DNA from: an uncultured bacterium
GTDB taxonomy: Bacteria > Planctomycetota > Phycisphaerae > Phycisphaerales > SM1A02
Direction of reading: 5' to 3'
Length of the DNA stretch: 36,422 nucleotides
Assembly (NCBI GenBank): GCA_903831295.1
Contig: CAIKXA010000107.1
Coordinates: forward strand, 1 to 36,422
Shown in pieces: positions 3,001-32,140 of the stretch (positions are counted from its first letter, which is position 1; every line of letters begins with the position of its first letter). The position numbers and the translations under genes are program-made. A model generated the notes under the pieces. The model was given only the letters and a program-made list of their open reading frames with translations. It ran no database searches and was not told the origin of the DNA.

Positions 3001-3766
3001 GAACATGCGATTGCGGATCCAATTGTACGAAGTGCCGATTGAGCCAAGTTTCCGCGATCCACTCGCTCCACAACGGACGCCACTGCGCGATGTCCACAAC
3101 TTTGTCCACGGGAGTTGCGATGTCAGTTTTTTTGGGCGCTGGAGTGATACTAAAACTGGTCTTGAAATTGGCGATATCAAGCGCGGCCTTTTCTAGAAGT
3201 ATTTTTTGTTCAGGCGCCAATGACGGATGACGCAGAGCTTTTTCAATCCAGCGCTGCGCCGAATCCACTCGGCCTTGATCAAGCGACTGCTGCGCGAGTG
3301 TCATCATGGCCTGCAAGCCCGCGGGCGTAAGCGAGCGAAGTTGCGCAACTTGCAAGACCTCGCCCTGATCCAACCTTCGCTGTGCGGCGGCGGATTCCTC
3401 GCGCAACCAACTTTGCATAACCAAGGCGTTGCTCAATAGAAATCGCTCGGCCGCGTCGAGCGTGTTTTGAAACCTGTCGCTAGAGCCATCCCATGGAACC
3501 AATTTATTTGGAAATCGATCCACGGCTTCTTGCAGGGAGCGCGCGCTTTCAGTTGGATTGTTCACGGCGGATTCTTGCGCGCGCCGCAGCAATTCCGCCG
3601 CGGTGGGACTTGTATCTATGGTCACCGGGGCGGATTCCTGGGCGTGAGCGCCGCGCGCCAACAACGCGACGCACAAGGCGACGCACAAGGCGAATGCCGC
3701 GGCGATCTGAAATTGGAAATTGTGATGGGCGACGCGTTTCACGCCTGAACGATACATTGCAACCAT
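1..3766 (-). CDS. Large exported PQQ-like beta-propeller protein (3' end outside window)
   Basis: A single minus-strand frame stays open from the ATG at 3766 to base 1, giving 1255 visible residues with the C-terminus missing. Residues 1-42 form a signal peptide: a basic start, a hydrophobic core with ALCVALCV, and a likely cleavage after GAHA. Residues 40-190 look helical. From about 345 onward PQQ/BamB-type blade motifs recur, such as LIALDRDTGALRW (about 405), LVCLSAQDGSTKW (about 505), LVALNPNTGEIAW (about 970) and MIAVNNASGATQW (about 1030), so there may be two propellers with a helical linker between them. Such proteins are usually periplasmic or envelope scaffolds; the PQQ name reflects the fold, not proven cofactor binding. 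The ATG overlaps the start codon of the divergent lipoprotein gene. A second in-frame ATG at 3757 is an alternative start, and neither has a clear Shine-Dalgarno site. Exact function is unknown. Confidence 0.8.
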   Translation of the reverse strand, partial: MVAMYRSGVKRVAHHNFQFQIAAAFALCVALCVALLARGAHAQESAPVTIDTSPTAAELLRRAQESAVNNPTESARSLQEAVDRFPNKLVPWDGSSDRFQNTLDAAERFLLSNALVMQSWLREESAAAQRRLDQGEVLQVAQLRSLTPAGLQAMMTLAQQSLDQGRVDSAQRWIEKALRHPSLAPEQKILLEKAALDIANFKTSFSITPAPKKTDIATPVDKVVDIAQWRPLWSEWIAETWLNRHFVQLDPQSHVREQQESAINGSALLSTARFTSDGLLIADGVTVRLLDLQTGLRRWQETVGSPSDRATLAPSDLAVAACADDVVVTLPGHALSEERSGLAKITALSLRTGVRLWDVYLDRLARTDAFAELFPHGEPLIVNDVVVVQARKSNSRLESAAWLIALDRDTGALRWANSLGAAGGVRLAVSRPLSSPTQLNGDVIAATSLGVVARMDSSNGHVIWLRRWSAPLREPRAANPPWQLPSPVVANDCVFWIQPDQSTLVCLSAQDGSTKWSTMLGVSEQLPAARSLLADQSRIYLLGEDVVALDINDPRHTLWKLSDQLSERNPVRGECALGTDQNGQPLLAVPLTNKVLLLDPATGRALGECPLQAGGNLSLQNGQLAIVDAQRVSLSMQATQGERLLRDRLAKNPSDPRNGLALLEFGRTLGKSSLMLDGATAMSSAINQTSTSSNTNANTGDLRDELLRRLLDVLGMKDMDQDTRAQLLAIANSTAISSAHHATIALRIGDLAAQQGQFDVAMDQWCSILDSKAMRDEMVGEDPRRTSAKVAALESVLSHPQTSNMPSRQRVARQARAEMLKCDSLSFINAVNMAVLLSSNAGEVKNILQEAAQRARDMGWMEAQRICLSMNSNEPSGARWPHANTVERLPQLGSAQSRGTTFAGRLLTMDPQAQAERPRSTMLFAEPSSILLRGGNDLGIVWRSAFGDRDPMVMAMIPNIVLWCAQSRDDGALVALNPNTGEIAWRLNSAAALFQAPRLEAIESATATERAEAAAITCVRAGPVSVLLRNIGEMIAVNNASGATQWTFASSMHAIDAADTTSQLVCVAGREAIAIDDLTNNPSLIQVLSCQTGAIITQRMLPEEWGRVRWLRILPDCVLVATDEVVAALELDANLPTRWVQQDRRYKDSPPAQIAGMWCLLLERAGSVAALNLSTGRSNPLPFVIPTDDPSSKANAITVLPYQTQWLAYRMQRISLHADDGTLAGVDAVAVDHRYENVILGQNAVFVVDGARPEF
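3666..3693. repeat. 12-bp tandem duplication inside a signal peptide
   Basis: The unit GACGCACAAGGC is present twice back to back (3668-3679 and 3680-3691), with period-12 identity extending to 28 bases. On the minus strand it encodes the duplicated Ala-Leu-Cys-Val in the hydrophobic core of the propeller protein's signal peptide. It keeps frame and may be a slippage product. Confidence 0.85.
3753..3758 (+). promoter_or_regulatory. Leaderless-type -10 (TACATT) for the LEA14-like gene
   Basis: TACATT is followed by exactly 6 bases and then ATG at 3765. No Shine-Dalgarno site is visible. The spacing would place transcription start on the ATG. No good -35 is seen. Confidence 0.4.
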
Positions 3767-4286
3767 GTCCAAGTGCGCATGTGCAAATGTCAAACCAAAG
3801 TCACCCCCTCGATCGGCGCGCGGATGGTTTCTTGCGTTGGCTTTGGGGTTTATTTCCAACCTTTGTGCATGCACCACTCCACCCGCAATTTCCGTGCTTG
3901 CCGTGGACGTGGTTGAAGTTGGAAGCACCGCGAATGAGGTGGCCATACGCCTGCAACTCACAAATCCAACCAAGGTTGCAATTCGAATTGACACTTGGAA
4001 TTATACGGTTCGCGTGCGCGAAGACCAGGTGTATTCAGGGCAATGGGTTGCCGCCATCACTATTCCGCCGGAAAGCAGATTGCTGACGGCGATCCCAGCG
4101 GTGGTGCCAATTCAAAATCAGCCTGGACCGGAATCGCCTTGGAGCATCGATGGATCATTGCGGTATTTGGAAACCAGCCGCTTCAGCCAGCTTTTGTACG
4201 ACCTTGGATTGAATCGTCCCAGCGCGCCGTTCACGGCTTCTGGACCAGGAATGGGTTCAGGTGGAACGATTCCCAGCGCGGGCTAG
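3765..4286 (+). CDS. LEA14-like (LEA type 2) lipoprotein
   Basis: This 173-residue protein has a basic N-terminus, a hydrophobic stretch at 21-33 and a lipobox-like L33-C34-A35-C36, so it is probably exported and lipidated at Cys36. The remainder resembles the LEA type 2 / WHy domain: an immunoglobulin-like beta sandwich with the pattern 'evairLqLtNPtkvairi..w.Ytv'. Members are linked to desiccation or stress tolerance in plants, and the bacterial lipoprotein forms have no settled role. The C-terminal 30 residues are Gly/Ser/Pro-rich. The gene is divergent from the beta-propeller gene and their ATGs overlap in the sequence CATG. Family assignment is by fold-like pattern and so is moderate. 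Confidence 0.65.
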   Translation: MSKCACANVKPKSPPRSARGWFLALALGFISNLCACTTPPAISVLAVDVVEVGSTANEVAIRLQLTNPTKVAIRIDTWNYTVRVREDQVYSGQWVAAITIPPESRLLTAIPAVVPIQNQPGPESPWSIDGSLRYLETSRFSQLLYDLGLNRPSAPFTASGPGMGSGGTIPSAG

Positions 4287-4338
4287 TTTCGATTGGGCAA
4301 CATAAAATTACAGGCGTGACGGCGGTTCAACGCGCGCG

Positions 4339-6540
4339 CTACAAACTGCTTGAATGTTCAAGACTCTGATGCCGCTGCGTTTCAACATTCATTAAATGTT
4401 GATGCACTCCAATGGCGCGTGGATCGGTTGGATCCAACTGCTCCCAACGAATTCGCTCATACGTTCCATCGCCACGCATCTGCCATGACTGACGGCAATC
4501 ATTCAAGCACGTTTGAATCACATCCCAAAGCCGCGCACGATGCTCCAGAAGCAAAATTGGAGTGGCCGCTTCAACACGCGTTTGTAAATTACGATACATC
4601 CAGTCGGCGCTACCGATGAACATTTCGCCGTCGAGTGGATTTTTCTTGCCCGCTTGGAACCAGAAAATTCTGCTGTGCTCCAAGAAACGCCCCACCACGC
4701 TGCGCACGCGAATGTTGTCGCTGAGACCAGGAACTCCTGGCCGCAAACAGCAAAAACCTCGGACAATCAAGTCAATTTGAACGCCAGCTTGGCTGGCGCG
4801 ATAGAGCGCGTCCATGATGCCGCGGTCCTCAAGTTGATTCATCTTTGCGATGATGCGGCCCGGCATTTCAGGCTTGGTGAGTTCAATCTCCTGCTCGATC
4901 AATTGCACGAAACGTTTCTTCATGGCCACCGGCGCGATCAGCAGGCGAAGATAATCGCGCTGACGGCTTCGACCGGTCATGTAATTGAAGAGGCCCGTCA
5001 AGTCCTCCGTGATTTGCGCGTCGCATGTCAACAAACCAATGTCCTCGTACAACCGCGCGGTCTTGGAATTGTAATTACCCGTGCCGATGTGTCCGTAGCA
5101 ACGAATGCCGTCGGCCTCTTGGCGCACAACCAACGCGGTCTTGGTGTGGGTCTTGAGTCCAACCACGCCGTAGGCCACGTGCACGCCCGCGTCCTCCAAC
5201 TTTCTCGCCCAACGAATATTGCGCGCCTCGTCAAAGCGCGCGCGCAATTCAACCAACACCGCAACTTGCTTTCCACTTTCGGCGGCCTGAATGAGGCTGG
5301 TGATAAATGGACTATCGCCACTTGTTCGGTACAAACTTTGCTTGATGCAAAGCACTTTTGGATCCTTCGCGGCCTGCTCAATGAAGTGCTCGATGCTGGC
5401 CTCGAAACTTTCATAAGGATGGTGCAGCAACACGTCGCCCTTGCGAATTCGCGCGAAAATATCGTAGTTTCCGTGGCCAACCTGCGGGGGCTTCAGCGGA
5501 GTCCATGGGCTGAAATGAAGTGTCGCATCATCCAAATCCGCGATCTCGTTCAGCGCTCCATACTCCAGCAGGCCGTCGGTCTCGTAAATATCCGCCTCGT
5601 CAATTTCTAGTTCGTCCATAAGAAATTTAAGAATGCGAGGGTTCGCGTCGCTTGGAATTTCCATGCGCACCACGCGGGCGAATCGGCGCTCGCGCAGTTG
5701 CTGCTGTATCGCCTCAAGCAGATCGTCGGCATCATCGTTGTCGTTGTCTATCTCAGCGTTGCGCGTCACGCGAAATGGAAGCACCTTCAGGATTTCCATT
5801 CCGGGAAAAAGCTCGTCTAAATTATGCTGGATGATGTCTTGCAAAGGAATCCAACGGCGCGTTCCTGGCACGCAGTACAAGCGAGAAGGAATCTCGGGCA
5901 CTTTCACGCGCGCAAAAAGTTGCTCGCTCTCACCGGGTCGTTGCAACATCACGCCAAGACTGACGCTCATGTTGGAGATGAATGGAAACCGATGTCCTGG
6001 ATCGACCGCCAACGGCGTCAGGATTGGAAACACATTGTGGCGAAACCACGCGCGAGCCTCATTCTGCTCGTCGATGTTCAACCCATCCCATTTCAGAAGA
6101 TCAATTTGCTTCTCGCGAAGCGCTGGCAAAAGCTCATTTTTTAGCGTGTTTGCCTGGGATTTGGCCATGGCTACAACGCGCTCCCGAATGCCGGCGAATT
6201 GTTGCGCGGGCGTGAGCGACTCCACCACCGGTCCGACGCGCCCCTGCTCAATCTGGTCGCGCAACGAACCCACGCGCTTCATGAAAAACTCATCTAGGTT
6301 GCTTGAGAAAATGGAAAGAAAACGAATTCGTTCCAACAATGGCGTTCCAGAATCGTTGGCCATGTCCAACACTCGGCGGTTGAATTCAAGCCACTCAAAA
6401 TCACGGTTCAAAAATCGCGCGGGATCCGTGAGAGCCGTGAACGCGCTTGAAGACAACGCACTGGCATCGGCCGCGGGATCAAGTTGAATGCGGGTGCGTT
6501 TCACCGCGCCACCTGATTTGGCGCGAAGCATGCTTCGCAT
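4339..6540 (-). CDS. ppk1: Polyphosphate kinase 1
   Basis: PPK1 reversibly transfers the gamma phosphate of ATP to the end of a polyphosphate chain. The 733-residue product contains the N-terminal FLNRDFEWLEFNRRVL segment (about 43-58), which is highly typical, followed by the head and the two phospholipase-D-like catalytic domains. The autophosphorylated histidine is H465 in GLKTHTK, followed by YGHIGTGNYNSKTARLYED. The second catalytic histidine is H622 in FLEHSRIFWF. Their 157-residue separation equals that of H435 and H592 in E. coli. IGSADWMYRN marks the C-terminal domain. At 733 residues it is somewhat longer than the E. coli enzyme. The start overlaps the end of the upstream COG0720 gene by 40 bases (31 if the ATG at 6531 is used), suggesting co-transcription. 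No ppx gene is adjacent. Confidence 0.97.
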   Translation of the reverse strand: MRSMLRAKSGGAVKRTRIQLDPAADASALSSSAFTALTDPARFLNRDFEWLEFNRRVLDMANDSGTPLLERIRFLSIFSSNLDEFFMKRVGSLRDQIEQGRVGPVVESLTPAQQFAGIRERVVAMAKSQANTLKNELLPALREKQIDLLKWDGLNIDEQNEARAWFRHNVFPILTPLAVDPGHRFPFISNMSVSLGVMLQRPGESEQLFARVKVPEIPSRLYCVPGTRRWIPLQDIIQHNLDELFPGMEILKVLPFRVTRNAEIDNDNDDADDLLEAIQQQLRERRFARVVRMEIPSDANPRILKFLMDELEIDEADIYETDGLLEYGALNEIADLDDATLHFSPWTPLKPPQVGHGNYDIFARIRKGDVLLHHPYESFEASIEHFIEQAAKDPKVLCIKQSLYRTSGDSPFITSLIQAAESGKQVAVLVELRARFDEARNIRWARKLEDAGVHVAYGVVGLKTHTKTALVVRQEADGIRCYGHIGTGNYNSKTARLYEDIGLLTCDAQITEDLTGLFNYMTGRSRQRDYLRLLIAPVAMKKRFVQLIEQEIELTKPEMPGRIIAKMNQLEDRGIMDALYRASQAGVQIDLIVRGFCCLRPGVPGLSDNIRVRSVVGRFLEHSRIFWFQAGKKNPLDGEMFIGSADWMYRNLQTRVEAATPILLLEHRARLWDVIQTCLNDCRQSWQMRGDGTYERIRWEQLDPTDPRAIGVHQHLMNVETQRHQSLEHSSSL

Positions 6541-6878
6541 TGCGGCGCTTCAACCACGCGGACTTCCTTTATACGCACACCACTTGGCAACCTCGCGCCA
6601 ACTTGCTCCGCAATATGTCGCGCCACAAGTTCCGCAGTTGGATTGATCCGATCAAATGGCGCGGTCTCATTCAAGGAGCGGTTGTTGAATGGATGGATGA
6701 CCTCATCGAGTGAATTTTGCAGCAGATGAAAATCACAAAGCAATCCATCGGAGTCAAGCGCGTCGGCGCACACCGCCACGGTGACTTGCCAATTGTGCCC
6801 ATGCATGGGCTCGCGCACTCCCGCCATCACAATGGCGTGCGCCGCGGAAAATGTGCGTTGAATTCGAAGTTCAAACAT
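6501..6878 (-). CDS. 6-pyruvoyl-tetrahydropterin synthase / QueD family (COG0720) protein with altered active site
   Basis: This 125-residue protein has the full T-fold pattern of COG0720. The zinc ligands are present: H14 (FSAAH), H26 and H28 (HGHNW). The C-terminal KEVRVVEAPQCEA segment with the conserved Glu is also present. QueD converts dihydroneopterin triphosphate to 6-carboxytetrahydropterin for queuosine; paralogues serve biopterin or folate synthesis. Here the catalytic Cys expected four residues before the first His of HGH is Arg22, and a Glu sits at 23, giving ExxHGH. The usual FDHRxLN dyad reads FNNRSLN, so Asp and His are both Asn. An ExxHGH form is, as I recall, typical of the PTPS-III subgroup that can replace FolB in folate synthesis. 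The function is therefore uncertain. The ATG at 6878 is preferred over the upstream TTG at 6905 because it gives the standard N-terminus and sits 7 bases after TATACT. ppk1 follows it. Confidence 0.8.
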   Translation of the reverse strand: MFELRIQRTFSAAHAIVMAGVREPMHGHNWQVTVAVCADALDSDGLLCDFHLLQNSLDEVIHPFNNRSLNETAPFDRINPTAELVARHIAEQVGARLPSGVRIKEVRVVEAPQCEACFAPNQVAR

Positions 6879-6885: not shown

Positions 6886-6891
6886 AGTATA
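6886..6891 (-). promoter_or_regulatory. Leaderless-type -10 (TATACT) for the COG0720 gene
   Basis: On the minus strand TATACT lies exactly 7 bases before ATG at 6878. It has five of six matches to TATAAT. No Shine-Dalgarno site is present, and no convincing -35 is seen. Confidence 0.5.
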
Positions 6892-6948: not shown

Positions 6949-6954
6949 TATTGT
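6949..6954 (+). promoter_or_regulatory. Leaderless-type -10 (TATTGT) for the GlmM-like gene
   Basis: TATTGT is followed by 6 bases and ATG at 6961. TTTCAC lies 17 bases upstream as a weak -35. There is no Shine-Dalgarno site. Confidence 0.45.
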
Positions 6955-6960: not shown

Positions 6961-8364
6961 ATGAACTCCGCACCTTTGATGCTTAGTGTTTCCGGCGCTC
7001 GGGGCATTGTTGGAAAAACCATGACGCCGCAAGTGGCGCATGCGTTTGGTTTGGCTTTCGGTTCATGGTTGATTGAGCATTCAAATAAAGCGCCGCATGT
7101 GATCACTGGCCGCGATGGCCGCGAAAGTGGCGCGGAACTTTTGGAGCATGCCATCGAAGGCTTGCTTCGCGCCGGTTGCCGCGTGACGGATCTTGGCGTT
7201 GCCATGACTCCGACCGTTGGAGTGATGGTGTTGCATACGCATGCTGACGGCGCGCTGATTTCAACCGCGAGCCACAATCCAATTGAGTGGAATGGTTTCA
7301 AATGCCTTGACGCGTCGGGCGCCGCACCGCCGGTGGAGCAAGCGAATGAAATCATTGAGGGATTTAAAAAAAGATGGAATCCAAACAATGTTGAACGCGC
7401 GCCAACGCCGACGCATGCCATGAATCAAGTGGTCCGCCAAACCGACGCGGATGAGATTCATGTGCGCCGCGTGCTGGAGTTGATCGACCGCGAAACAATT
7501 CGCGCCGCGAAACTGAGCGTGGTGGTTGACAGCGTCAACGGCGCGGGTTGCCGCGCTGTTGGCTTGTTGTTGGATCAATTGGGCGTGCGCCTTGAACACC
7601 TCAATGGCGTGGTCACTGGCTCATTTGCGCACACCCCGGAACCAACCGAAGCCAATTTGCATCAACTCGCTGACGCCGTTGCAAAAGGCTCATTTACCTG
7701 CGGTTTCGCGCAAGATCCAGATGCAGATCGCTTGGCGATTGTGGATGAGAACGGCCGCTACATTGGCGAGGAATATACATTGGCGCTGTGCGCGCTGCGC
7801 GTGCTTGAACGCGTTGGCTCTGGCGCTATGGCCACCAATCTCAGCACCAGTCGCATGATTGATTCTGTCGCGGCAAAATTTTCCGGCAGCCGCGTGTATC
7901 GCAGCGCCGTTGGCGAGGCGAATGTTGTGGCCGCCATGAAAAATTCCAACAGCGTGATTGGTGGCGAAGGCAACGGCGGCGTGATTTGGCCTAGCGTGTG
8001 TTGGATCCGAGATTCACTCAGCGGCATCGCGCTCACGCTTGAACTTCTGGCCACACGCGGCAAAAAATTATCTGTGATCGCGGCGGAAATTCCCGCGGTG
8101 TCGATGATCAAACGCAAACTTGAACTTTCAGGCATTGGTGGAATTGCGGCGGTAAAGCCCGCGCTTGATCGCGTAGCCACGGCATTTGCCGGCGCCAAAG
8201 TTGACACGACCGATGGCGTGCGCATTGATTTGCCAAACGGCTGGGTGCATTTGCGCGCCAGCAATACCGAGCCCATTATTCGCCTGATCGCCGAGGCGGC
8301 GACGGCGATTCAGGCCAACGCCTTGGCCGATGAAGTGGCCGTAATCGCCGGATTACCTGCGTAA
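6961..8364 (+). CDS. glmM: Phosphohexose mutase, probably phosphoglucosamine mutase (GlmM-like)
   Basis: This is a 467-residue alpha-D-phosphohexomutase. The phosphoserine loop TASHNP places the active Ser at 104, close to Ser102 of E. coli GlmM. The metal loop DPDADR puts its three Asp at 252, 254 and 256. A GGEGNGG sugar-binding loop lies near 336-342, and the phosphate-binding RASNTEPIIRL loop is at the C-terminus. The opening SVSGARGIVG and the GEGNGG form resemble the GlmM group of archaea and Bacteroidetes more than E. coli GlmM, so a phosphomannomutase role is possible. Converting GlcN-6-P to GlcN-1-P would feed UDP-GlcNAc synthesis together with the UDPGP-family gene at 11442. The frame is open back to 6877, but ATG 6961 avoids overlap with the divergent gene and has a well-placed -10. 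Confidence 0.85.
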   Translation: MNSAPLMLSVSGARGIVGKTMTPQVAHAFGLAFGSWLIEHSNKAPHVITGRDGRESGAELLEHAIEGLLRAGCRVTDLGVAMTPTVGVMVLHTHADGALISTASHNPIEWNGFKCLDASGAAPPVEQANEIIEGFKKRWNPNNVERAPTPTHAMNQVVRQTDADEIHVRRVLELIDRETIRAAKLSVVVDSVNGAGCRAVGLLLDQLGVRLEHLNGVVTGSFAHTPEPTEANLHQLADAVAKGSFTCGFAQDPDADRLAIVDENGRYIGEEYTLALCALRVLERVGSGAMATNLSTSRMIDSVAAKFSGSRVYRSAVGEANVVAAMKNSNSVIGGEGNGGVIWPSVCWIRDSLSGIALTLELLATRGKKLSVIAAEIPAVSMIKRKLELSGIGGIAAVKPALDRVATAFAGAKVDTTDGVRIDLPNGWVHLRASNTEPIIRLIAEAATAIQANALADEVAVIAGLPA

Positions 8365-8929: not shown

Positions 8930-9864
8930 TGCACCCTCTCTGTTTGAGTTACGCCGCGCTGGCCTGACATCAAGCCCGCGTGATGTAAAAGTTCGGCGAT
9001 TGTTTTTTGCGTTGCCGCGGTCGCGCCCACCAATGGCAATCGAACGGCGCCGCTGTCGCGGCCCAAGATTTGCATGGCGGTCTTGATGGGAACTGGATTG
9101 GTGTCCAATGAAAGCAAGCCCTTGGACAGCGGCAAAAGTTTTTCATGAATCACGCGCGCCGCGGCGAAATCATTTTGAACGCACGCTTGAATCAGCGACT
9201 GCACCAACGCAGGCATGACATTGCTGACCACGCTGACAACGCCAATGGCGCCGACAGCCGCGAAGGCAAGCGTGAGCACATCGTCACCCGACAAGATTGG
9301 CATGGCGCAGCGACGGCGAATTTCTGTGGCGGATTCAATGCTGCCGGTGGCCTCCTTGATGGCGACAATATTTGGATGCTTGGACAAACGCTCCACTGTC
9401 TCCGGCAAAATTGCCACGCCGCAGCGGCCGGGAATGGAATACAGCACAACGGGCAAGTCGGCCGCGTCGGCGACATGCATGAAATGCTGGTAAATGCCCT
9501 CTTGATTCGGCTTGTTGTAATACGGCGCGACATGCAACGCGGCGTCCGCGCCCAGCGCCGCGACCAACTTGTGCAACTTCACCGCGGTGGCGGTGTTGTT
9601 GCTTCCGGCGCCGGCCATCACCTGCATACGCAGCGACTTGGCGGTCTCCACCGCAGTGGCCACAACCTGCTCGTGTTCCTGTGCGCTCAATGTTGGCGAT
9701 TCGCCAGTGGTGCCACACGGAACAATTCCCGCCACGGCGCCTTCCGCCTGCGCGCGGATTTGCCGCTTGAAACATTCCACATCAACGCGCGTTGCGTCGC
9801 TGGTGAATGGCGTAACCATGGCCGTCCAACAACCAGACAATGCGAGTGGTTTATTTGAACTCAC
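8926..9864 (-). CDS. dapA: 4-hydroxy-tetrahydrodipicolinate synthase
   Basis: DapA condenses pyruvate with aspartate semialdehyde, the first committed step of the diaminopimelate and lysine branch, in the cytoplasm. The 312-residue product shows the TIM-barrel hallmarks. GTTGE is at 51-55, YYNKP near 115-119, and YSIPGR starts at Tyr142. The Schiff-base lysine K170 is in VAIKEATGS, and SGDD follows. All catalytic residues are present. The start is GTG at 9864, overlapping the pdxJ stop in GTGA (9861-9864), so it is probably translated by coupling. It is the middle gene of the pdxJ-dapA-Nudix operon. No other lysine genes are in the window. Confidence 0.96.
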
Positions 9865-10607
9865 TTGTGATTCTCCATCATGGCGGCTTTGATTTCGCGC
9901 ACGGCTTCTTGCATGCCCACAAAGATAGAGCGGCTGACGATTGAATGCCCGATGTGAAGTTCATGCAATTGCGGCAAGCGGGCGACGGGCCCAACATTGG
10001 CCACATTCAGCGCGTGGCCGGCGTTGAGTTGCAAACCAAGTTCGCGCGCGTGACGAGCCGCCACATGCAACGCGTCAAGTTGATGATCCGATTGCTTTCC
10101 AAGCAACGCGCCCGACTGCGCATGCACCGCGTGAGCCCACGGGCCAGTGTGCAGTTCACAAATGGTGGCGCCCACTTTGCGCGCGGCGTCGATTTGCTTG
10201 CGATCGGCGTCAATAAAAAGACTCACGGGAATCCCGGCGCCCGTAAGCATGCTCACCACCTCGGTGAGCCATGGAATTTGTCCCGCGGCGTCCAGGCCAC
10301 CCTCGGTTGTCAACTCTTGGCGCCGTTCCGGAACCAACATGGCCGTGGCTGGTTGCGTGGCGATGGCAAATCGCACCATCTCCTTTGTCGCGGCCATTTC
10401 CAAATGCAACCGCGTGGACACATGCATCTTCAAGCGCGCCACATCGGCGTCTTGAATATGCCTTCGATCCTCGCGCAGATGAACGGTGATTCCATCGGCT
10501 CCGCCAAGTTCGGCTTGCGCCGCGGCGAGCACGGGGTCGGGTTCGTTGCCCTTGCGCGCTTGGCGAAGCGTGCAAACATGATCCACATTGACGCTCAGAA
10601 GAGGCAC
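9861..10607 (-). CDS. pdxJ: Pyridoxine 5'-phosphate synthase
   Basis: PdxJ condenses 3-amino-2-oxopropyl phosphate with 1-deoxyxylulose 5-phosphate to pyridoxine 5'-phosphate. The product carries [46 protein letters not shown] and a C-terminal [16 protein letters not shown]. These are the family's substrate and phosphate-binding segments, and no expected part is missing. I chose GTG at 10607 (248 residues; E. coli has 243). It gives the standard N-terminus, avoids overlapping divergent phoU, and has TACTCT exactly 6 bases upstream. An in-frame ATG at 10649 is the alternative; it would overlap phoU by 10 bases. PdxJ is first in an operon with dapA and a Nudix gene. Confidence 0.96.
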
Positions 10608-10613
10608 AAACAA

Positions 10614-10619
10614 AGAGTA
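10614..10619 (-). promoter_or_regulatory. Leaderless-type -10 (TACTCT) for pdxJ
   Basis: On the minus strand TACTCT is followed by 6 bases and GTG at 10607. It lies only 5 bases from a candidate phoU -10, TAAGAT at 10625-10630, so the two divergent promoters overlap. Confidence 0.4.
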
Positions 10620-10639
10620 GCCGCTAAGATCAACAAGAG

Positions 10640-11347
10640 ATGAGCGCATTTGACCAACAACTTTCGTTGCTCAAAAAAGAAATGACCGTCCAAGGTCGCC
10701 GCGTGCTGGATTTATGCACGCAAGCGGTGGATTGTTTCTTTGACTCCGACATAGACAAGGCGCGCGAAGTGATCTTGGCCGACGATGCCATCGACAAGGC
10801 CGATGTGGAGATTGAACGCGCCAGTGTGCCCCTGTTGGCGATGGGCCAGACCCAGGAGCACGCGATCCGCTCGGTGCTGACGATTGTGAAAGTGAACAAC
10901 GAACTTGAGCGCATTGCCGACGACGGCGTGACCATTGCCGAGCGCGTGTTTGACGCGCGCCGTTTCACCGAACGAACTCCCGACACGTTTCGCGTGATGG
11001 CCAACAGCGTTCTGGGAATGTTGCGCGACGCCACGCGCTCGCTTGAACGGGAAGACGCCGCGTTGGCGCGCCAAGTGTTGCTGTTCGATGACACGGTGCA
11101 GCGTTTTAAAAAAGAAATATTGTTGGACGCTGAGAATCAAGTGGCAAGCGGAGCCTTCAGTCCGGGCTTCGCATTCCGCTTGCTCACGGTGGTGAAGGCC
11201 GTCGATCGGATCTCGGATCACGCCACCAATATCTGCGAGCAGGTGATTTATTTGCGGCGTGGCTTGATTGTGCGACATAGACCCGATGGATGGAGCGATC
11301 CGGAATTGCCGCAATCAATGGGCGCCGATTCCGGAAATGAAAGTTGA
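10640..11347 (+). CDS. phoU: PhoU family phosphate signalling protein
   Basis: This 235-residue all-helical protein has the two PhoU repeats. Each bears the metal-binding helix: [19 protein letters not shown] (about 77-95) and [19 protein letters not shown]. PhoU binds metal clusters and links the Pst phosphate transporter to the PhoR/PhoB sensor pair, damping the Pho response. No pst or pho genes are beside it, so it may be a stand-alone copy. ppk1 lies about 4 kb away, which is a functional link through phosphate storage but not an operon. ATG 10640 has no Shine-Dalgarno site; TAAGAT lies 9 bases upstream. It is divergent from pdxJ, with a gap of only 32 bases. Confidence 0.93.
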
Positions 11348-11429: not shown

Positions 11430-11435
11430 TAAATT
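11430..11435 (+). promoter_or_regulatory. Leaderless-type -10 (TAAATT) for the UDPGP-family gene
   Basis: TAAATT is followed by 6 bases and ATG at 11442. The 40 bases upstream are AT-rich, unlike the rest of the region. There is no Shine-Dalgarno site. Confidence 0.45.
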
Positions 11436-12884: not shown

Positions 12885-14636
12885 TCACGCGTTGGTGGAG
12901 TTGTCGTGAAAGCGAACGTCTTTCACATGGATCGAAGGCGGGAAGCGTGGATTACTGCTGGGCTTTGGGCAACCCACCGCGTCAAAGCGACGACCAGGCG
13001 TGAATAAATTTCTGTACTGCGCGTTGTGCCAAAATATAAGTTCGCCCTTGGCGCCGGTGTCGTCTTGCACCAATAATTTCAAACCCGTCCCTACAAGAAT
13101 GTCCGTGCGCAAAACTTGAAAGCCGCGCATAAGAATATTTGGATCGGCAAATCCTTGGCCGAATGGCCCAAGCGATTGGATGATTGGGATGGTTTTTTTA
13201 TCTTTGACGTTTCCATATGAAAGTTCGGCGTCTACTTCAAGCGCCGGCTTTTGAACACCGTCTCGCATTTGCATTTTTGCGGCGCTTTCAAAGCGCGGGG
13301 CGAACGCCTCGAATTGATCAAAGTTCATGGAGCCCCCCGCCGCGGCCGCGTGTCCGCCAAAGTTGGTGAAAAATTTGGCGCAGGTGGTCAGGCACTCATG
13401 CAAATCAAATCCAACTGGCGCGCGACCCGATCCCTTCCAACCACTGTCGCTTGCGCCGAACAACATCACTGGACGAGTGAACTCCTCTGAAAGCCGGCCC
13501 GCGGCCAAACCAAGAATGCCAGGATTCCAACTTTTGTCCGCCATAACAATCGCGCAACGATCTTCGGCGTTCAATGACGCCGCTATCGCTTTGGCGCGCG
13601 CTACATCCACCATGTCCTTGGCGTTCTGTTTACGCATTTCATTTAATTCATCCAGTTTCGCCGCCATGTTCTTGCATTCGACTGGGTTTTCATTTAGAAG
13701 CAAATCCAGCGCTTGTGTGGCGTGCTCAAGCCGGCCCGCCGCGTTTAACCGCGGAGCGATTTGAAATCCAATCACGCTTGCGTCCATGATCGGACTGGCC
13801 AACGCGGCGCTAGGTATCAAGCAACGTAGACCTTGCACGGTTGTGTTTTTCAGAACCGCCAAACCGCTTCCAACCACGATGCGATTTTCATCGATCATGG
13901 GCATGACATCCGCGATGGTGGCAACAGCCGCGAGTGGAATTGCCTCATTCACAATCCACTGACGCAGGACCTGAGGCGGTTGATCGCCCGTGCGAATTCG
14001 AATCAAACGCTTGGCCACTTTCAGCGCCACCATTGCGGCACAAATTGGGCGAAACGGCGTGTCGCCTAATTCAGGATGCGCGATCGCCTGACATTGCGGC
14101 AACTGCAAATTTCCATCGCCGTCGTAACGCAATCGATGATGGTCCGTGATCGCCAATTCAATCCCCAACTTTTGCGCATGCAGCGCCTCTTCAATAGAGG
14201 ACCCGCCACAATCAACGGTGATAACGGCTTCAATATCGCGCGCGCGCAAATCATCAAGCGCCTCGTTGTGCAATCCATATCCCTCGATCACGCGGTGCGG
14301 TATGTACGCAATGGGTGATGGCTGCACTTTCAATTCACGAAACAAGCGGATCAGAATCGCCGTGGCGCAAATTCCGTCGGCGTCGTAATCACCGTACACG
14401 GCGATGCGTTTGCCTTGCGTGATCCAACGATCCAAAACCCGCGCCACATTGTCAGCGCCATGCAACGAGCCCGGATCGTGCATCAATGCCAGAGGCGGCT
14501 GAGGCGTGGCGAACAATTGCGCATTGCGCTCGCCCGCAAGTCCGCGACAGCGAATCACCCGCTCGCGCAGACCAATAGAAGAGTCCCGAGCCGGCGCAGT
14601 CGAATGCCATTGGTATCTGGGAAATTCCACATGCAC
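12885..14636 (-). CDS. recJ: Single-stranded-DNA-specific exonuclease RecJ
   Basis: RecJ degrades single-stranded DNA 5' to 3' in recombination and mismatch repair. The 583-residue product has the DHH phosphoesterase motifs in order: DYDADG (83-88), ITVDCG (139-144), TDHH (164-167), and APRLNAAGRLEHA further on. Then come the DHHA1 part with WNPGILGLAAGRL, a GGHAAAAGG segment at about 425-435, and a C-terminal OB-like domain. Length is normal for the family. The frame opens with GTG at 14636; a second GTG at 14630 has TAGGCT exactly 6 bases before it and may be the true start. Neither has a Shine-Dalgarno site. It is convergent with the UDPGP gene and divergent from the adenylate-kinase-like gene. 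Confidence 0.95.
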   Translation of the reverse strand: MHVEFPRYQWHSTAPARDSSIGLRERVIRCRGLAGERNAQLFATPQPPLALMHDPGSLHGADNVARVLDRWITQGKRIAVYGDYDADGICATAILIRLFRELKVQPSPIAYIPHRVIEGYGLHNEALDDLRARDIEAVITVDCGGSSIEEALHAQKLGIELAITDHHRLRYDGDGNLQLPQCQAIAHPELGDTPFRPICAAMVALKVAKRLIRIRTGDQPPQVLRQWIVNEAIPLAAVATIADVMPMIDENRIVVGSGLAVLKNTTVQGLRCLIPSAALASPIMDASVIGFQIAPRLNAAGRLEHATQALDLLLNENPVECKNMAAKLDELNEMRKQNAKDMVDVARAKAIAASLNAEDRCAIVMADKSWNPGILGLAAGRLSEEFTRPVMLFGASDSGWKGSGRAPVGFDLHECLTTCAKFFTNFGGHAAAAGGSMNFDQFEAFAPRFESAAKMQMRDGVQKPALEVDAELSYGNVKDKKTIPIIQSLGPFGQGFADPNILMRGFQVLRTDILVGTGLKLLVQDDTGAKGELIFWHNAQYRNLFTPGRRFDAVGCPKPSSNPRFPPSIHVKDVRFHDNSTNA

Positions 14637-14642
14637 AGCCTA
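14637..14642 (-). promoter_or_regulatory. Leaderless-type -10 (TAGGCT) for recJ
   Basis: On the minus strand TAGGCT is followed by 6 bases and GTG at 14630, favouring that start over GTG 14636. TATAGG overlaps it and is an alternative reading. Confidence 0.3.
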
Positions 14643-19640: not shown

Positions 19641-19647
19641 GCCAAGC

Positions 19648-19653
19648 AGGATA
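19648..19653 (-). promoter_or_regulatory. Leaderless-type -10 (TATCCT) for the tpiA operon
   Basis: On the minus strand TATCCT is followed by 7 bases and ATG at 19640. It lies inside the spacer of the opposing alaS promoter, so the two promoters overlap completely. Confidence 0.5.
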
Positions 19654-19665
19654 GCCACAGATTTC

Positions 19666-19671
19666 TAGAAT
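19666..19671 (+). promoter_or_regulatory. Leaderless-type -10 (TAGAAT) for alaS
   Basis: TAGAAT has five of six matches to TATAAT and is followed by 6 bases and ATG at 19678. There is no Shine-Dalgarno site or clear -35. Confidence 0.55.
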
Positions 19672-19677
19672 CGCTGC

Positions 19678-22614
19678 ATGCTCCGCGCCGCCGACATTCG
19701 AAAAACATTTCTGGATTATTTCGCACAACACGCTGGACACACCATTGTGCCGTCAAGTCCGGTGGTGCCGCACGACGATCCCACGCTGCTCTTCACCAAC
19801 GCGGGCATGAATCAATTCAAGGATGTGTTTCTTGGTCGCGGCGCGCGCGATTACAAGCGCGCGGTGGACACGCAGAAGTGCATTCGCGCTGGCGGCAAGC
19901 ACAACGATCTTGAAGATGTTGGACGCGACACATACCACCACACATTTTTCGAGATGCTTGGCAATTGGTCCTTCGGCGATTACTTCAAGAAAGATTCCAT
20001 TGAGTGGGCGTGGGATTTATTGACGCGCGTGTATGGCCTTCCGAAAGATCGTTTGTATGCGACATACTTTGGCGGATCCAAAGAGGCGGGCCTTGAGCCC
20101 GACATGGAAGCCAAGGCGCTGTGGGAAAAATTTCTTCCAGCGTCGCGCGTGCTGCCTGGCAACATGAAGGACAACTTTTGGGAAATGGGCGAGACCGGTC
20201 CGTGTGGTCCATGCAGTGAAATTCATTTTGATCGCATCGGCGGACGCGACGCCGCGGCGATGGTGAACGCAAGCGATCCCGACGTGCTTGAAATTTGGAA
20301 CTTGGTATTTATTCAATTCAACCGCGAAAATGGCGGCAAACTTACGCCTTTGCCCGCCAAGCACGTGGACACCGGCATGGGTTTGGAGCGGTTGGTTTCC
20401 GTCTTGCAGAACAAGCGCTCCAATTATGAAACAGATTTGTGGACGCCGCTCTTCGCGGCTATTCAAGCGGCGACCGGCGCCAAGCCTTATGCCAACACTC
20501 TCACCGATCCCGCCGACATTGCCTACAGAGTTGCGGCGGATCACGCGCGCTGTTTGTGCAGCGCGATCGCCGATGGTGCCGCGCCAGGCAACGAGGGTCG
20601 CAACTATGTGCTGCGGCGAATTCTGCGGCGCGCGGCGCGCATGGGTCATCAACATCTTGGCGCACGCGGAGCGTTCTTGCACAAAGTGGTCGCGGCCGTG
20701 TGCGATTCTCTTGGCGATGTCTTTCCTGAACTTCGCGCGCAACAGCAACGCGTCACCGACATTATTCGCGACGAAGAAATTGCGTTTGGAAAAACACTGG
20801 AGCGCGGCATTGAACTTTTTGAAGTGGCGGCCAAGGCGGCGCGCGCCGCGGGCGGCGTGGTGAGCGCACAAGACGCGTTTCGTTTGCACGACACCATGGG
20901 CTTTCCAATTGACTTGACGCAAGTCATGGCGCAAGAGCGCTCGCTTACTGTGGACGACGTCGGCTATCAAGAACTCATGGAGCGCGCGCGTGAAACCAGC
21001 CGCGCTGGAACGCAAGACGCGGCCCGCATCACGCTTACTCCAGACGCGATTGAGAAACTGCGAACGCTTCACGTGGCGACCACCGACGAAACGCCTAAAT
21101 TTGCTGGGAAATCGTGCACAAGCCGTGTTGAAGCCATTTGGGATGGAAAGCATTTGCAGGAGAAACTAGAAGCCGGAATTCCAGCGGCGGTGATTGTGAA
21201 ACGAACATGCTTTCACGCCGAGGGCGGCGGACAAATTGCCGACAGCGGTTTTATTTTGTCCGAGCATTCCGGCGCGGCGCTGAACGCGGCCATGGAGGAC
21301 ATGGATGAAATGACTGGCGGCGTTCTAAGCGCGGCCAATAGTTCGCTGGGAATGATTGGTGATGTCGCCGCGGTGCCCGCCCAACGCGACTCAGTGGACG
21401 CCGTTGAATTTGAAATCACCGATGTGCAAAATGAGGCTGGATACGTGCTGCACATTGGTCACGTGAAACGCGGCGTGCTGCGCCGCGGCGATAGCGTGAT
21501 CATGGAATTAAAAAAGCCGCGTCGACATTTGGTGGCGGCGCACCACACCGCCACGCATTTGATGAACTGGGCGTTGCGTGAAACCCTGGGTGAAGACGTG
21601 CAGCAGCGCGGCAGTTTGGTGGCCGACGATCGCCTGCGCTTTGACTTTTCATTCACGCGCGCCATGACCAACGACGAAATTGCGGGCGTGGAAAAGTTGG
21701 TGATGGCGCACATCAACAACAACAGCGTGGTGGATGCAGCCAATGCCCCGCTGGATCAAGCTAAAAAAATCGCGGGCGTGCGCGCGGTGTTCGGCGAAAA
21801 ATATCCCGACCCCGTACGCGTGGTTTCCATCGGGGCCACTGTAGCGGCGCTGCTTGCGGACCCAACCAACGCCAAATGGCGCGGCGCCAGCGTTGAATTT
21901 TGCGGCGGAACTCATTTGCCTTCTAGCAAAGAAGCCCACTCGTTTGCCATTATGAGCGAGGGTGCGCTCAGCACTGGCGTGCGCCGTATCACGGCCGTTG
22001 CGGGCGTGGCAGCCACCGCCGCGATTCAAACCGCCAACAATCTTGCCGCTCGCATGGAGCAAGCGCGCGCATTGCAAGGCGCGGAGTTGAACGCGGAAGT
22101 TTCCGAGATCGGTCAACTGATGCAATCACTTTCCATCGCGCATTCTCAAAAACAAATACTCAACACAACCATGGATGCTTTGCGCGACTTGGCCAAAGCA
22201 GCGCGACGCGAGAACGAGGCGGCCACACGCGAAGCCACGCTTGCGCGCATGCAAGAAATGATCACGGCGCATGAGCAAGCGTCTGCCAGTGATGCGTTCG
22301 TCGCGTTGCTAGAAAACGCCGACGCACCAGCGTTGTTGGCGGCGCTGAACATGGCCAAAACGAAATTGCCACAGACCGCAATTTTGCTGGCGTGGTCTGA
22401 TGCCGAAGAAGGAAAAGTTTCTATTGTGGCCTGCGTGCCGGCGGCGCTTATCACCAAGGGTTTGAAAGCCGGCGACTGGGTGAAAGTTGCGGCGCAAGTG
22501 TGTGGCGGCGGCGGCGGCGGCAAACCCGACATGGCGCAAGCTGGTGGAAAAGATCCATCCAAAACCGCCGAAGCCTTGGACGCCGCGCGCGCGCACGCCA
22601 AAAAATTCGAGTGA
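19678..22614 (+). CDS. alaS: Alanine--tRNA ligase
   Basis: AlaRS charges tRNA-Ala and edits Ser/Gly mischarging. The 978-residue protein begins IRKTFLDYF and has TLLFTNAGMNQFKDVFLG, the GNWSFGDYFK segment, and METGP-like MGETGPCGPCSEIH in the aminoacylation domain. The editing domain has the zinc motif HTATH (H623, H627) and CGGTH (C742, H746). The C-Ala domain ends with a CGGGGGGKPDMAQAGG loop. The length is slightly above the E. coli enzyme, with an Ala/Asp-rich insertion near residues 540-570. ATG 19678 sits 6 bases after TAGAAT. It is divergent from tpiA. The same window encodes tmRNA, another AlaRS substrate. Confidence 0.97.
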   Translation: MLRAADIRKTFLDYFAQHAGHTIVPSSPVVPHDDPTLLFTNAGMNQFKDVFLGRGARDYKRAVDTQKCIRAGGKHNDLEDVGRDTYHHTFFEMLGNWSFGDYFKKDSIEWAWDLLTRVYGLPKDRLYATYFGGSKEAGLEPDMEAKALWEKFLPASRVLPGNMKDNFWEMGETGPCGPCSEIHFDRIGGRDAAAMVNASDPDVLEIWNLVFIQFNRENGGKLTPLPAKHVDTGMGLERLVSVLQNKRSNYETDLWTPLFAAIQAATGAKPYANTLTDPADIAYRVAADHARCLCSAIADGAAPGNEGRNYVLRRILRRAARMGHQHLGARGAFLHKVVAAVCDSLGDVFPELRAQQQRVTDIIRDEEIAFGKTLERGIELFEVAAKAARAAGGVVSAQDAFRLHDTMGFPIDLTQVMAQERSLTVDDVGYQELMERARETSRAGTQDAARITLTPDAIEKLRTLHVATTDETPKFAGKSCTSRVEAIWDGKHLQEKLEAGIPAAVIVKRTCFHAEGGGQIADSGFILSEHSGAALNAAMEDMDEMTGGVLSAANSSLGMIGDVAAVPAQRDSVDAVEFEITDVQNEAGYVLHIGHVKRGVLRRGDSVIMELKKPRRHLVAAHHTATHLMNWALRETLGEDVQQRGSLVADDRLRFDFSFTRAMTNDEIAGVEKLVMAHINNNSVVDAANAPLDQAKKIAGVRAVFGEKYPDPVRVVSIGATVAALLADPTNAKWRGASVEFCGGTHLPSSKEAHSFAIMSEGALSTGVRRITAVAGVAATAAIQTANNLAARMEQARALQGAELNAEVSEIGQLMQSLSIAHSQKQILNTTMDALRDLAKAARRENEAATREATLARMQEMITAHEQASASDAFVALLENADAPALLAALNMAKTKLPQTAILLAWSDAEEGKVSIVACVPAALITKGLKAGDWVKVAAQVCGGGGGGKPDMAQAGGKDPSKTAEALDAARAHAKKFE

Positions 22615-26862: not shown

Positions 26863-28005
26863 TCAGCCGTTTCGCTGCGCAAAATCACGCATGACATCAG
26901 CCAACGCTTTGGCTCCCTCAATGGGCATGGCGTTGTACATACTGGCGCGCATTCCGCCCGTAGCTTTGTGCCCCGCCAATGCGGCAAGCCCGGCGTTGGC
27001 GGCTTCCTTTAAGAACAAAGGCTCATGCTTGGGATTGGCCGCGTGAAAAAGCACGTTCACAAAACTCTGGCATTCCGTTTGCGCGTTGGCTTTCCAAAAA
27101 CCATTTGAGTCTCGAATGGCCGCCAAAACCAAATCGCTGCGCGTCTTCGCGCGGCGTTGCATTTCAAGAAGCCCACCTTGACGAAGAATCCACTGGCACA
27201 TCAAGCCAACAGTGTGCATGCCAAATGTGGCTGGCGTGTTCAAGCGGCTTTCCGCTTTGGCGTGCTCGTCGTAGCGCAACATGCTTGGCAACTTTCGAAC
27301 AGGCGCCTTCAATAAGTCGCGGCGAATCACCACCATGGTCATGCCAGATGGACCAAGATTTTTTTGCCCCGAGGCATACAAGAAAGCGCAGCCCTTCAAG
27401 TCCAGTGGCTCCGCGTAAATATCACTGCTCGCGTCGCGCGCCAACCACGCGCCCGCGGCTGGTTGCGGCGGCGCAACCCAACGCGTTCCCCACACGGTGT
27501 TGTTGGAGCAGTAATGCAAATAGGTTGAGCCCGGCGTGGTCTTCAACTCGCCAGCGCGCGGAGTGCGGCTATATCCAAAGTCCGCGCCCTTCCAAATTTC
27601 ATTGATTTTTCCGACTTCTTTGCCATCCGCGATCGCTTTTGAAGTCCACACGCCGGTGTCTGGATAATCAGCGCTCGCGCCGTCGGCCAGAAAGTTCAGC
27701 GGCAACATTCCAAATTGCTGCGTGGCGCCGGCGGGCAAAAACAACACCGCGTAGTCCTGAGAAATATTTCCAACTTTGCGAAACGCATCTTCGCTCTCTT
27801 GCAAAATCTTCTCAAACAATTCGCCGCGGTGGGAAATTTCCAGAATGCCCGCGCCACCACCGCGAAGATCCACCAAGTCGGCTTGCAGTTGCTCAAGCAC
27901 TTCAAGCGGCATGGTGGCCGGACCCGCTGAGAAATTAAATACGCGCCCTCCAGGCAAAGGGCGAACCGCGCTGGCATGAACCTGACCTTGGGTTGCGTGA
28001 CTCAT
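26863..28005 (-). CDS. serC: Phosphoserine aminotransferase
   Basis: SerC converts 3-phosphohydroxypyruvate and glutamate to phosphoserine, the second step of serine synthesis; it also serves pyridoxal phosphate synthesis in some bacteria, and pdxJ is in this window. The 380-residue product has FNFSAGPATMP near 23-33, GGGAGILEISHRG, LPAGATQQFGMLP, and the PLP lysine K215 in ASGQKNLGPSG. The C-terminal ATGGMRASMYNAM binds substrate phosphate. Its length is slightly above the usual 360. ATG 28005 overlaps the serA stop in ATGA (28002-28005), and GAGGAAAT before it offers a weak Shine-Dalgarno site. It is downstream of serA in one operon. Confidence 0.96.
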   Translation of the reverse strand: MSHATQGQVHASAVRPLPGGRVFNFSAGPATMPLEVLEQLQADLVDLRGGGAGILEISHRGELFEKILQESEDAFRKVGNISQDYAVLFLPAGATQQFGMLPLNFLADGASADYPDTGVWTSKAIADGKEVGKINEIWKGADFGYSRTPRAGELKTTPGSTYLHYCSNNTVWGTRWVAPPQPAAGAWLARDASSDIYAEPLDLKGCAFLYASGQKNLGPSGMTMVVIRRDLLKAPVRKLPSMLRYDEHAKAESRLNTPATFGMHTVGLMCQWILRQGGLLEMQRRAKTRSDLVLAAIRDSNGFWKANAQTECQSFVNVLFHAANPKHEPLFLKEAANAGLAALAGHKATGGMRASMYNAMPIEGAKALADVMRDFAQRNG

Positions 28006-29270
28006 GATTTCCTCACAATCGAAGTGATGCTTGCGCTTAACACATTGGCGTTGCGACGAATGGTGTTCATTTGTTCCTCTGTTGGAGTTTGGTTCAAGTG
28101 AATGCGGGCCAACGCGGCCTCGCCACCATCGTAAATAATATTTTCCATCTCCTCGGCGTTGATGCCCGCTTGGCCCAATGTGTAAAATACATGCGCCAAC
28201 ACGCCGGGACGATTCAAATGCCTCACCGACAACAACGTTGTCGCGGGCGTGGAACGCGCGCGATTCACGCAGTTTGGCGCGGAACCACTCTCCAACCACT
28301 CGCGGATCACGCGCACGGTTTCAGCCGCCACGGCGTGGGCCGCCTGCGTGGTGGAAGCGCCCACATGAAATGTTCCGTACACGCCCGGCACCTTGGCAAT
28401 GGCCTCATCAAATTTCGCGTCATCTTTGTCAGGCTCATGCGCGAACACATCAAGACCCGCGCGAATGCCGCGGCCACGAACCGCCGCCGCCAACGCCGCC
28501 TCATCCACAACTCGACCACTTGAAGTGTTCACGAAAATGGAATTGAGTTTCATGGCGTTCAAAAACTTCTCGCCAATCAACAAGTCTGTCTCCTCATGCA
28601 CGGCCAAACTTACGCTCACCACATCGGCCAACTTTGCCAAGTTGACAATGTTGGCGCAGAAGTGCACGCCCGCCGCGTCAGCTTTCTCCTCCGTGAGTTG
28701 ACGACTCCACGCCACAACACTCATGCCGAAGGCTTTGGCGCGCCGCGCAATTTCCATTCCAACTTGTCCCAAACCAATGACGCCAAGAGTGCGTCCATGC
28801 AAACCCGCGGCCTGCAAATATTCTTTGCGCTTCCATAATCCGTTGCGCATTTCAATCACTTGATCAGGCAAGCGACGATCACACGCAAGAATGTGCGCCC
28901 ACGCCAACTCCGCCACCGCATTGGCATTTCGCCCGGGACAATTGGCGACAAACACTCCGCGACGACTGGCCGCGCCAAGATCAATTTCATCCACGCCGGC
29001 GCCCGCTTGCACCACCAAAGCAAGTTTTGGGCTGGCTTCGATAGCGGCCTCATTCACAACAGTTTCGCGCACCACCAATACTTCGGCTTGCGTATCCGCA
29101 AGGCGCTTAGCCAAATCTTTGGAGGCCAACTCTGGCTCGTACACAACTTCGCAACCCATGTCTTGAATGGCTTGAACACCGTTGCCACCAATGGTGTCGG
29201 CCACCAAAACTTTCACGATGGTTCTAGGAATTGAATTTGAATTTGCGCTGCTTCTAGAAAATACTGTCAT
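28002..29270 (-). CDS. serA: D-3-phosphoglycerate dehydrogenase with ACT domain
   Basis: SerA oxidises 3-phosphoglycerate to 3-phosphohydroxypyruvate with NAD+. The 422-residue protein has the substrate domain (VQAGAGVDEIDL near 87-98), the NAD loop GLGQVG (166-171), the catalytic Glu in LDVFAHEP, the catalytic His in TFHVGAST, and a C-terminal ACT domain (about 345-420) with RPGVLAHVFYTLGQAGIN for likely serine feedback. The segment that in relatives reads NxSRG or NxARG reads NTSSGRVVDE, so the usual catalytic Arg is Ser, with an Arg two residues later. ATG 29270 has TACACT 6 bases upstream; an internal GTG at 29216 is a less likely start. It is upstream of serC and downstream of the DUF1015 gene. 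Confidence 0.93.
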   Translation of the reverse strand: MTVFSRSSANSNSIPRTIVKVLVADTIGGNGVQAIQDMGCEVVYEPELASKDLAKRLADTQAEVLVVRETVVNEAAIEASPKLALVVQAGAGVDEIDLGAASRRGVFVANCPGRNANAVAELAWAHILACDRRLPDQVIEMRNGLWKRKEYLQAAGLHGRTLGVIGLGQVGMEIARRAKAFGMSVVAWSRQLTEEKADAAGVHFCANIVNLAKLADVVSVSLAVHEETDLLIGEKFLNAMKLNSIFVNTSSGRVVDEAALAAAVRGRGIRAGLDVFAHEPDKDDAKFDEAIAKVPGVYGTFHVGASTTQAAHAVAAETVRVIREWLESGSAPNCVNRARSTPATTLLSVRHLNRPGVLAHVFYTLGQAGINAEEMENIIYDGGEAALARIHLNQTPTEEQMNTIRRNANVLSASITSIVRKS

Positions 29271-29276: not shown

Positions 29277-29282
29277 AGTGTA
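29277..29282 (-). promoter_or_regulatory. Leaderless-type -10 (TACACT) for serA
   Basis: On the minus strand TACACT is followed by 6 bases and ATG at 29270. It lies in the 21-base gap after the DUF1015 gene, so serA-serC may have their own promoter in addition to read-through. Confidence 0.45.
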
Positions 29283-30687: not shown

Positions 30688-30720
30688 ATCGCGCTTGAAA
30701 AAACTTTAGAGAGGACCGAC

Positions 30721-31821: not shown

Positions 31822-31885
31822 AAAAAATTCAAGAAAATTGTTTTCACCCCTTGCGTGATACTTGGCATGTTGTCACAATCAACAT

Positions 31886-32140
31886 ATGAACTTTGAGGCC
31901 AAGGAAGGCTTCGCTGGTATAGACGCCGCAGAGCATAAGTATAAGACTCTGAAGATGGCGATAGGTTCACTCGCCCCATTTGATAGACACGTGTTACAAC
32001 TTCGCTGGGCCGATGATTTGTCGCGCCACGAAACCGCATCCGTGCTTGACCGAGACCCCGCTTCCGTGTTGGCGGCGGAAAATCGTTTGCGCGCTTGGAT
32101 GCGTGAGCAAATTGAAGTTGCCGAAGTTACCTTGGTCTAA
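31886..32140 (+). CDS. Small protein resembling sigma factor region 4
   Basis: This 84-residue protein has a central segment, LAPFDRHVLQLRWADDLSRH then ETASVLDRDPASVLAAENRL, that follows the sigma-70 region 4 pattern (L..xeR.vl.LR....s..EiA..L......V). This is a helix-turn-helix that in sigma factors contacts the -35 box. No region 2 is present, so it is not a complete sigma factor; it could be a stand-alone DNA-binding protein or bind core polymerase. The N-terminal 30 residues are charged. CACAAT lies 6 bases before ATG 31886 and there is no Shine-Dalgarno site. It starts 64 bases after the HD-GYP gene, so the two may be co-transcribed. It is convergent with the dockerin-like gene, 5 bases away. 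Confidence 0.6.
   Translation: MNFEAKEGFAGIDAAEHKYKTLKMAIGSLAPFDRHVLQLRWADDLSRHETASVLDRDPASVLAAENRLRAWMREQIEVAEVTLV

Follow-up and report, generated by a model that had tools for sequence, protein, structure and literature searches.

Leaderless genes with a promoter set directly before the start codon are a design known from Actinobacteria and Deinococcus. For TA-led leaderless genes, the relevant part of Zheng et al. (2011, PMC3160421) reads a TANNNT lying some 12 bases upstream of the start codon as a -10 box, with such genes in 207 of 953 genomes. In Deinococcus-Thermus, according to sections of PMC12340547, a -10 motif adjoining the start codon was tested experimentally, and the domain-wide scan of that source (Fig. 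S7) may include Planctomycetota. The mycobacterial leaderless transcriptome, as outlined in PMC3898074, has TANNNT together with leaderless starts, and a passage of PMC5397173 suggests initiation by "leaderless mRNA and/or RPS1" for Planctomycetes on the basis of one species. Our searches of the openly accessible literature on planctomycetes and Phycisphaerae found no paper devoted to leaderless promoters, which, beside the phylum-level hint in PMC5397173, fits the remark of the initial annotation that the design was not known to have been described for this lineage.

The DNA analysed here (the window; 36,422 nucleotides) is contig C107 of an 83.7% complete draft genome of 2.48 Mb, placed in the Phycisphaerales by named relatives of the window's alaS-like gene and by family and order labels. 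The recurrent TANNNT boxes of the window very probably serve as -10 elements in RpoD (sigma-70) promoters of the ordinary type and, as judged from sequence, the first base of each transcript would coincide with that of the start codon.

Results

TANNNT boxes in the window and their conservation

Nine genes of the window had been credited with a TANNNT box, and all nine boxes are present, at a spacing to the start codon of 6 bases (seven boxes) or 7 bases (two boxes, 6886 and 19648, both minus strand). They are listed here as putative -10 boxes, with the number of orthologs in which they are kept.

3753 to 3758, plus strand: TACATT, spacing 6 to the ATG at 3765 of a lipoprotein-like gene (3765 to 4286); all 4 orthologs whose start could be used, not counting a fifth that has none.
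6886 to 6891, minus strand: TATACT, spacing 7 to the ATG of a QueD/PTPS-like gene (6501 to 6878), whose family match is under its cut-off; at 6 or 7 in 4 of 5 orthologs.
6949 to 6954, plus strand: TATTGT, spacing 6 to the ATG at 6961 of a GlmM-like gene (6961 to 8364, TIGR03990); 3 of the 4 orthologs whose start could be used.
10614 to 10619, minus strand: TACTCT, spacing 6 to the GTG of pdxJ (9861 to 10607, TIGR00559); 5 of 5 orthologs.
11430 to 11435, plus strand: TAAATT, spacing 6 to the ATG at 11442; 0 of 6 orthologs, near-identical G007 excluded.
14637 to 14642, minus strand: TAGGCT, spacing 6 to the GTG of a recJ-like gene (12885 to 14630); at 6 or 7 in 6 of 7 orthologs.
19648 to 19653, minus strand: TATCCT, spacing 7 to the ATG of tpiA (18843 to 19640, TIGR00419); 9 of 9 orthologs, middle bases variable.
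19666 to 19671, plus strand: TAGAAT, spacing 6 to the ATG at 19678 of a gene (19678 to 22614) that we take to be alaS-like by recognition, not by family search; 9 of 9 same-genus orthologs.
29277 to 29282, minus strand: TACACT, spacing 6 to the ATG of a serA-like gene (28002 to 29270); 3 of 3 orthologs.

When any ATG or GTG within 60 bases is allowed, the probability per gene of TANNNT at two adjacent spacings is 0.037 (largest control 0.050), and the chance P of nine boxes among 24 to 28 genes is 9e-8 to 6e-6. A weaker version at the same spacing had been attributed to acs; CATGAT lies there at spacing 6, and TANNNT occupies that place in 3 of 8 orthologous genomes.

Conservation was counted with one ortholog per gene and genome within the genus, leaving out G007 and the 2 orthologs without a usable start. 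TANNNT was kept at spacing 6 or 7 in 43 of 52 orthologs, against 0 to 3 at other spacings; the eight boxes other than 11430 account for 43 of 46. The TAAATT at 11430 is probably due to chance or limited to one species pair. Among orthologs of less than 80% protein identity, a set that overlaps the 52, 9 of 10 kept the box at 6 or 7 versus 0 of 8 for TANNNT at 12 to 50. Across species the tpiA box reads TATCCT, TAGGCT, TACCCT or TAGCCT, the core being constant and the middle free.

A positional peak across the genome

An independent sample was drawn from the same genome with the window excluded: 60 stretches, 11 of them wholly masked, giving 869 kb of letters. Gene starts were assigned with our own simple hexamer caller, which is blind to upstream signals. 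A gene counted as promoter-proximal if its neighbour is divergent or if 80 bases or more separate it from the upstream gene, and as operon-internal if it lies within 25 bases of the upstream gene. Deinococcus deserti (positive control) and Escherichia coli (negative control) were run through the same pipeline.

Plotting TANNNT by distance from the start codon for first and internal genes, the check proposed in the initial annotation, gave a clear enrichment: 52 of 341 promoter-proximal genes carry it at spacing 6 (p=1.1e-40) and 11 of 341 at spacing 7, control spacings averaging 3.97 genes and never exceeding 8. D. deserti gave a peak (9 of 79) and E. coli none (0 of 47). The box had been described as a mark of promoter-proximal genes, where it is indeed commoner, but operon-internal genes also peak at 6 (15 of 183 versus 0.79); the internal peak is therefore weaker, not absent. 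These internal boxes are perhaps promoters inside operons.

A position-specific scan, made on the 40 stretches taken first, compared approximately 53,760 three-base patterns. TA...T at -12 came out on top, with 32 of 203 genes where 4.1 were expected (p=3.7e-19); the patterns next in rank contain G-14, the second one combining it with A-11 and T-7. The scan took the place of an unseeded EM motif search in which TANNNT did not come up and which had settled on a diffuse TTCA-like motif in first genes and on a GGA-like motif in internal ones. A mixture model seeded with TANNNT put the class fraction at 0.32 for first genes, an estimate that depends on this seeding, at 0.11 for internal genes and at 0.02 for a shifted null. 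Applied to relatives, the seeded model drifted to uninformative solutions in 5 of 7 sets, and the EM results for high-GC relatives were discarded.

The starts in the window had been picked by eye and 11430 is not conserved, so that chance combined with a free choice of start codons had to be weighed. As a whole this explanation is refuted, its probability being close to nil, by the peak in the independent sample, by conservation and by a count in which any nearby start was permitted equally at every spacing, where divergent genes (window included) still gave 29 of 128 at spacing 6, no other spacing exceeding 11; it may apply to 11430.

Close divergent pairs

In the own-genome sample and the window together, 17 of 105 divergent pairs have 25 to 60 bases between their start codons, and in 14 of these 17 a box stands at 6 or 7 on at least one side. 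Two promoters would fit back to back in such a gap because promoters of this kind are short. In the window the gaps are 37 bases for tpiA/alaS (19640 to 19678), where the two boxes are opposed with 12 bases between them, and 32 for pdxJ/phoU (10607 to 10640), the second partner being the following gene.

10640 to 11347, plus strand: phoU-like gene, divergent from pdxJ, with TAAGAT at spacing 9; spacing 6 to 9 in orthologs.

Elsewhere in the window, positions 16382 to 17470 encode an APH-family phosphotransferase-fold kinase (PF01636) that overlaps its neighbours.

The drift of the box across spacings 6 to 9 in the PhoU-like orthologs favours a reading that takes the box as a sigma promoter yet places the beginning of the transcript elsewhere, at an upstream promoter with a longer leader, the box serving as a second or weak start. 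A promoter untied to translation would have no reason to keep a constant distance, and the fixed spacing, C at -1 and the depletion at short spacings fit a start at the codon itself; we regard a start elsewhere as improbable. That depletion was seen in six Phycisphaerales sets, where TANNNT at spacings 3, 4 and 5 occurs in 3, 2 and 0 of 958 genes versus about 8.5 each (pooled, 5 observed versus about 25.6, summed by hand), whereas a Bacteroidota pool gave 8, 17 and 11 versus 13.5. It is explained if a box so close would put the transcription start inside the start codon.

Anatomy of the box and Shine-Dalgarno sites

Alignment of 62 boxes at spacing 6 showed G at -14 in 56% (p=2e-9), A at -32 in 53% and C at -1 in 53%. 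G-14, the extended -10 position, is present in 45 of 85 boxes (any nearby start, window included) and two bases upstream of the box in five of the nine window boxes (3753, 6949, 10614, 19648 and 29277); T at -15 is not enriched in these 85 boxes (TG in 9, CG in 18). The -35 element had been called weak or absent, and a TTGACA match of at least 4 was indeed found in 17 of 85 boxes versus 19 of 85 in a control region. A-32 was considered as a robust -35 remnant and rejected, as it was not seen in sets other than the genome's own boxes.

A reading of TANNNT as an A/T-rich translation signal in place of a promoter, acting through S1 or through low structure, draws on RPS1 having been offered as an alternative for the A/T-rich bias upstream of non-Shine-Dalgarno genes, one Planctomycetes species included, in the part of PMC5397173 concerned. 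The weaker peak in operon-internal genes, the exact spacing and G-14, which is not an A/T bias, speak against it, and we consider it very improbable.

Box genes had also been said to lack Shine-Dalgarno sites. Such sites are rarer among them (4 of 104 versus 140 of 550), but this is weak evidence and largely mechanical: writing TANNNT into the 550 genes leaves 46 of the 140 sites (p=0.16), which ruled out Shine-Dalgarno exclusion as independent evidence. No 16S RNA gene was found in the 83.7% complete draft genome; at nine loci of relatives the 16S RNA ends in the anti-Shine-Dalgarno CACCTCC, and a table in PMC10783764 covers the anti-Shine-Dalgarno of Phycisphaerae. An AGGAG-type site precedes the adk-like gene (14708 to 15328) in several orthologs, and from its sequence this gene looks leadered. 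Approximately 30 bases upstream of it GGCATA recurs in orthologs, in several of which an AGGAG-type site then follows.

Transcription machinery

Because -35 boxes are weak, a different polymerase requirement had been suggested; the findings make this unnecessary. The genome's own RpoD (647 aa) can be aligned to E. coli sigma-70 over regions 2 to 4, with the 4.2 helix kept, and its region 3.0 reads HMIET, the same as in E. coli. V454 and E458, numbered as in E. coli, are present in it and in 20 others of the order. As described in a section of PMC5101437, E458, R441 and V454 are the readers of the extended -10, which can substitute for a poor -35. G-14 together with an E. coli-like RpoD region 3.0 can thus explain the absent -35, and no special polymerase is needed. 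RbpA was found in 0 of 25 genomes, with a positive Corynebacterium control, and no stand-alone CarD was found in the same 25. The CarD domain occurs only within a long frame, one per genome in 25 of 25 (in G015, one frame in two pieces), of 683 to 1213 aa; these frames are of Mfd-like length and the single example inspected is Mfd-like.

Spread among relatives

On a first look at relatives, G057 (8 of 45) and the named Phycisphaerae taken as one pool (7 of 109) showed a clear spacing-6 peak. It was weak in G056 (4 of 39) and G030 (3 of 33), and G014, G016, G024, G032, G046 and G051 had at most 1 each. With added sequence G014 gave 3 at spacing 6 and 5 at spacing 7 (of 60), and with pooling the family gave 7 of 121.

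Whole-genome pattern counts were compared with a reversed control, a poor match in GC-rich genomes, and a phase-matched control, p<0.001 being required against both. The own genome passed with 83 versus 20 reversed and 17 phase-matched (1 of 1), as did 6 of 6 genomes of the same genus, 9 of 16 of the family, 11 of 19 of the order, 1 of 14 of the same class, 2 of 10 of the same phylum and 0 of 4 Bacteroidota. Median excess per Mb over the phase-matched control was 6.7 in the class (14 genomes), 7.0 in the phylum (10) and 0.2 in Bacteroidota (4). Within Phycisphaerales it was 16.9 in 36 genomes and 5.0 in six genomes of genus g23 and family f4 with low RpoD scores (p=8e-7; ratio test p=0.003), p-values that overstate the difference because the six represent at most two clades. 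Beyond the order the signature is mostly absent despite high RpoD scores; an ordinary RpoD is therefore not sufficient.

Diverged RpoD in g23 and f4, and boxes at spacing 5 in g23

RpoD_Cterm falls below its cut-off in 10 of 10 g23 and f4 genomes (318 to 342 bits; loci L269-L278). It does so in G022 too, where the match ends at the contig end; the remaining full-length RpoD of the order score at least 358 bits, including G054 and G058 from g23's own family, and the incomplete genomes G003 and G008 have no full RpoD. Divergence of g23 and f4 RpoD from the order consensus peaks in regions 3.0 to 3.2, reaching 0.58 (g23) and 0.38 to 0.57 (f4) in the sigma finger, where the rest of the order averages 0.05; regions 2 and 4 stay within the range found outside the order. 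E458 is replaced by D in 4 of 4 g23 and 1 of 6 f4 genomes, whereas all 21 others of the order and all 16 genomes outside it have E. V454 gives way to L or M in 5 of 6 f4, and the sigma finger of g23 shows a gap of one residue.

Boxes in g23 lie at spacings 5, 6, 7 and 8 in 6, 5, 5 and 2 of 117 genes (L172-L176, L306-L310), small numbers from 200 kb of three genomes; other Phycisphaerales have spacing 5 in 0 of 958 genes and 6 to 8 in 168 (versus g23, p=3.5e-7). G051 of f4 has 1 at spacing 5 and none at 6 to 8 (of 54). Nor is spacing 5 confined to g23, since it occurs in 2 of 85 D. deserti and 1 of 57 E. coli genes. Both groups were at first read as without the trait, which in g23 is countered by its excess over the phase-matched control (27/12, 27/6, 33/9 and 25/11). 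With boxes spread to spacing 5, which the whole-genome pattern misses, g23 therefore retains the trait in a shifted or reduced form. Tentatively, and with the odds against it, sigma region 3 may have co-evolved with leaderless start geometry, the distance in g23 coming down to 5 and the signature fading in f4, where region 3 has changed in another way; cause and effect are what we infer here. If true, the distance from -10 to start codon records where the polymerase starts, g23 and f4 are a natural experiment on start-site selection, and the g23 lead links the structure of genes to the geometry with which RNA polymerase selects its start.

Discussion

The independent-sample peak, ortholog conservation, the D. 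deserti and E. coli controls and the depletion at spacings 3 to 5 give in silico support to the leaderless reading proposed in the initial annotation. RpoD (sigma-70) would use a -10 box without a -35, with G-14 in about half; transcripts would carry 0 to 3 leader bases, and translation would begin at a 5'-terminal AUG or GUG without Shine-Dalgarno pairing. By the seeded mixture, about a third of promoter-proximal genes would fall into the leaderless class; Shine-Dalgarno sites serve the others. An uncultured Gram-negative-type lineage would thereby join those with abundant leaderless messages, and for annotation, start codons and promoters of Phycisphaerales could be called together from the box.

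In a difference from the mycobacterial system, the 25 relatives searched here yielded neither RbpA, which the Corynebacterium control has, nor stand-alone CarD; these helpers would therefore not be a general requirement. With the TA-led genes of PMC3160421 the boxes share the TANNNT core about 12 bases upstream of the start, Planctomycetes being absent from the groups named in section 7 of that source. Its account of several low-GC genomes has a TG peak before the box, whereas here G-14 occurs at approximately 53% GC and T-15 is not enriched. The Deinococcus-Thermus motif, as presented in the sections of PMC12340547 concerned, is the same in another phylum, and our own D. deserti sample peak has G-14 in 5 of 9. 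The design is of a known kind, in a little-documented lineage.
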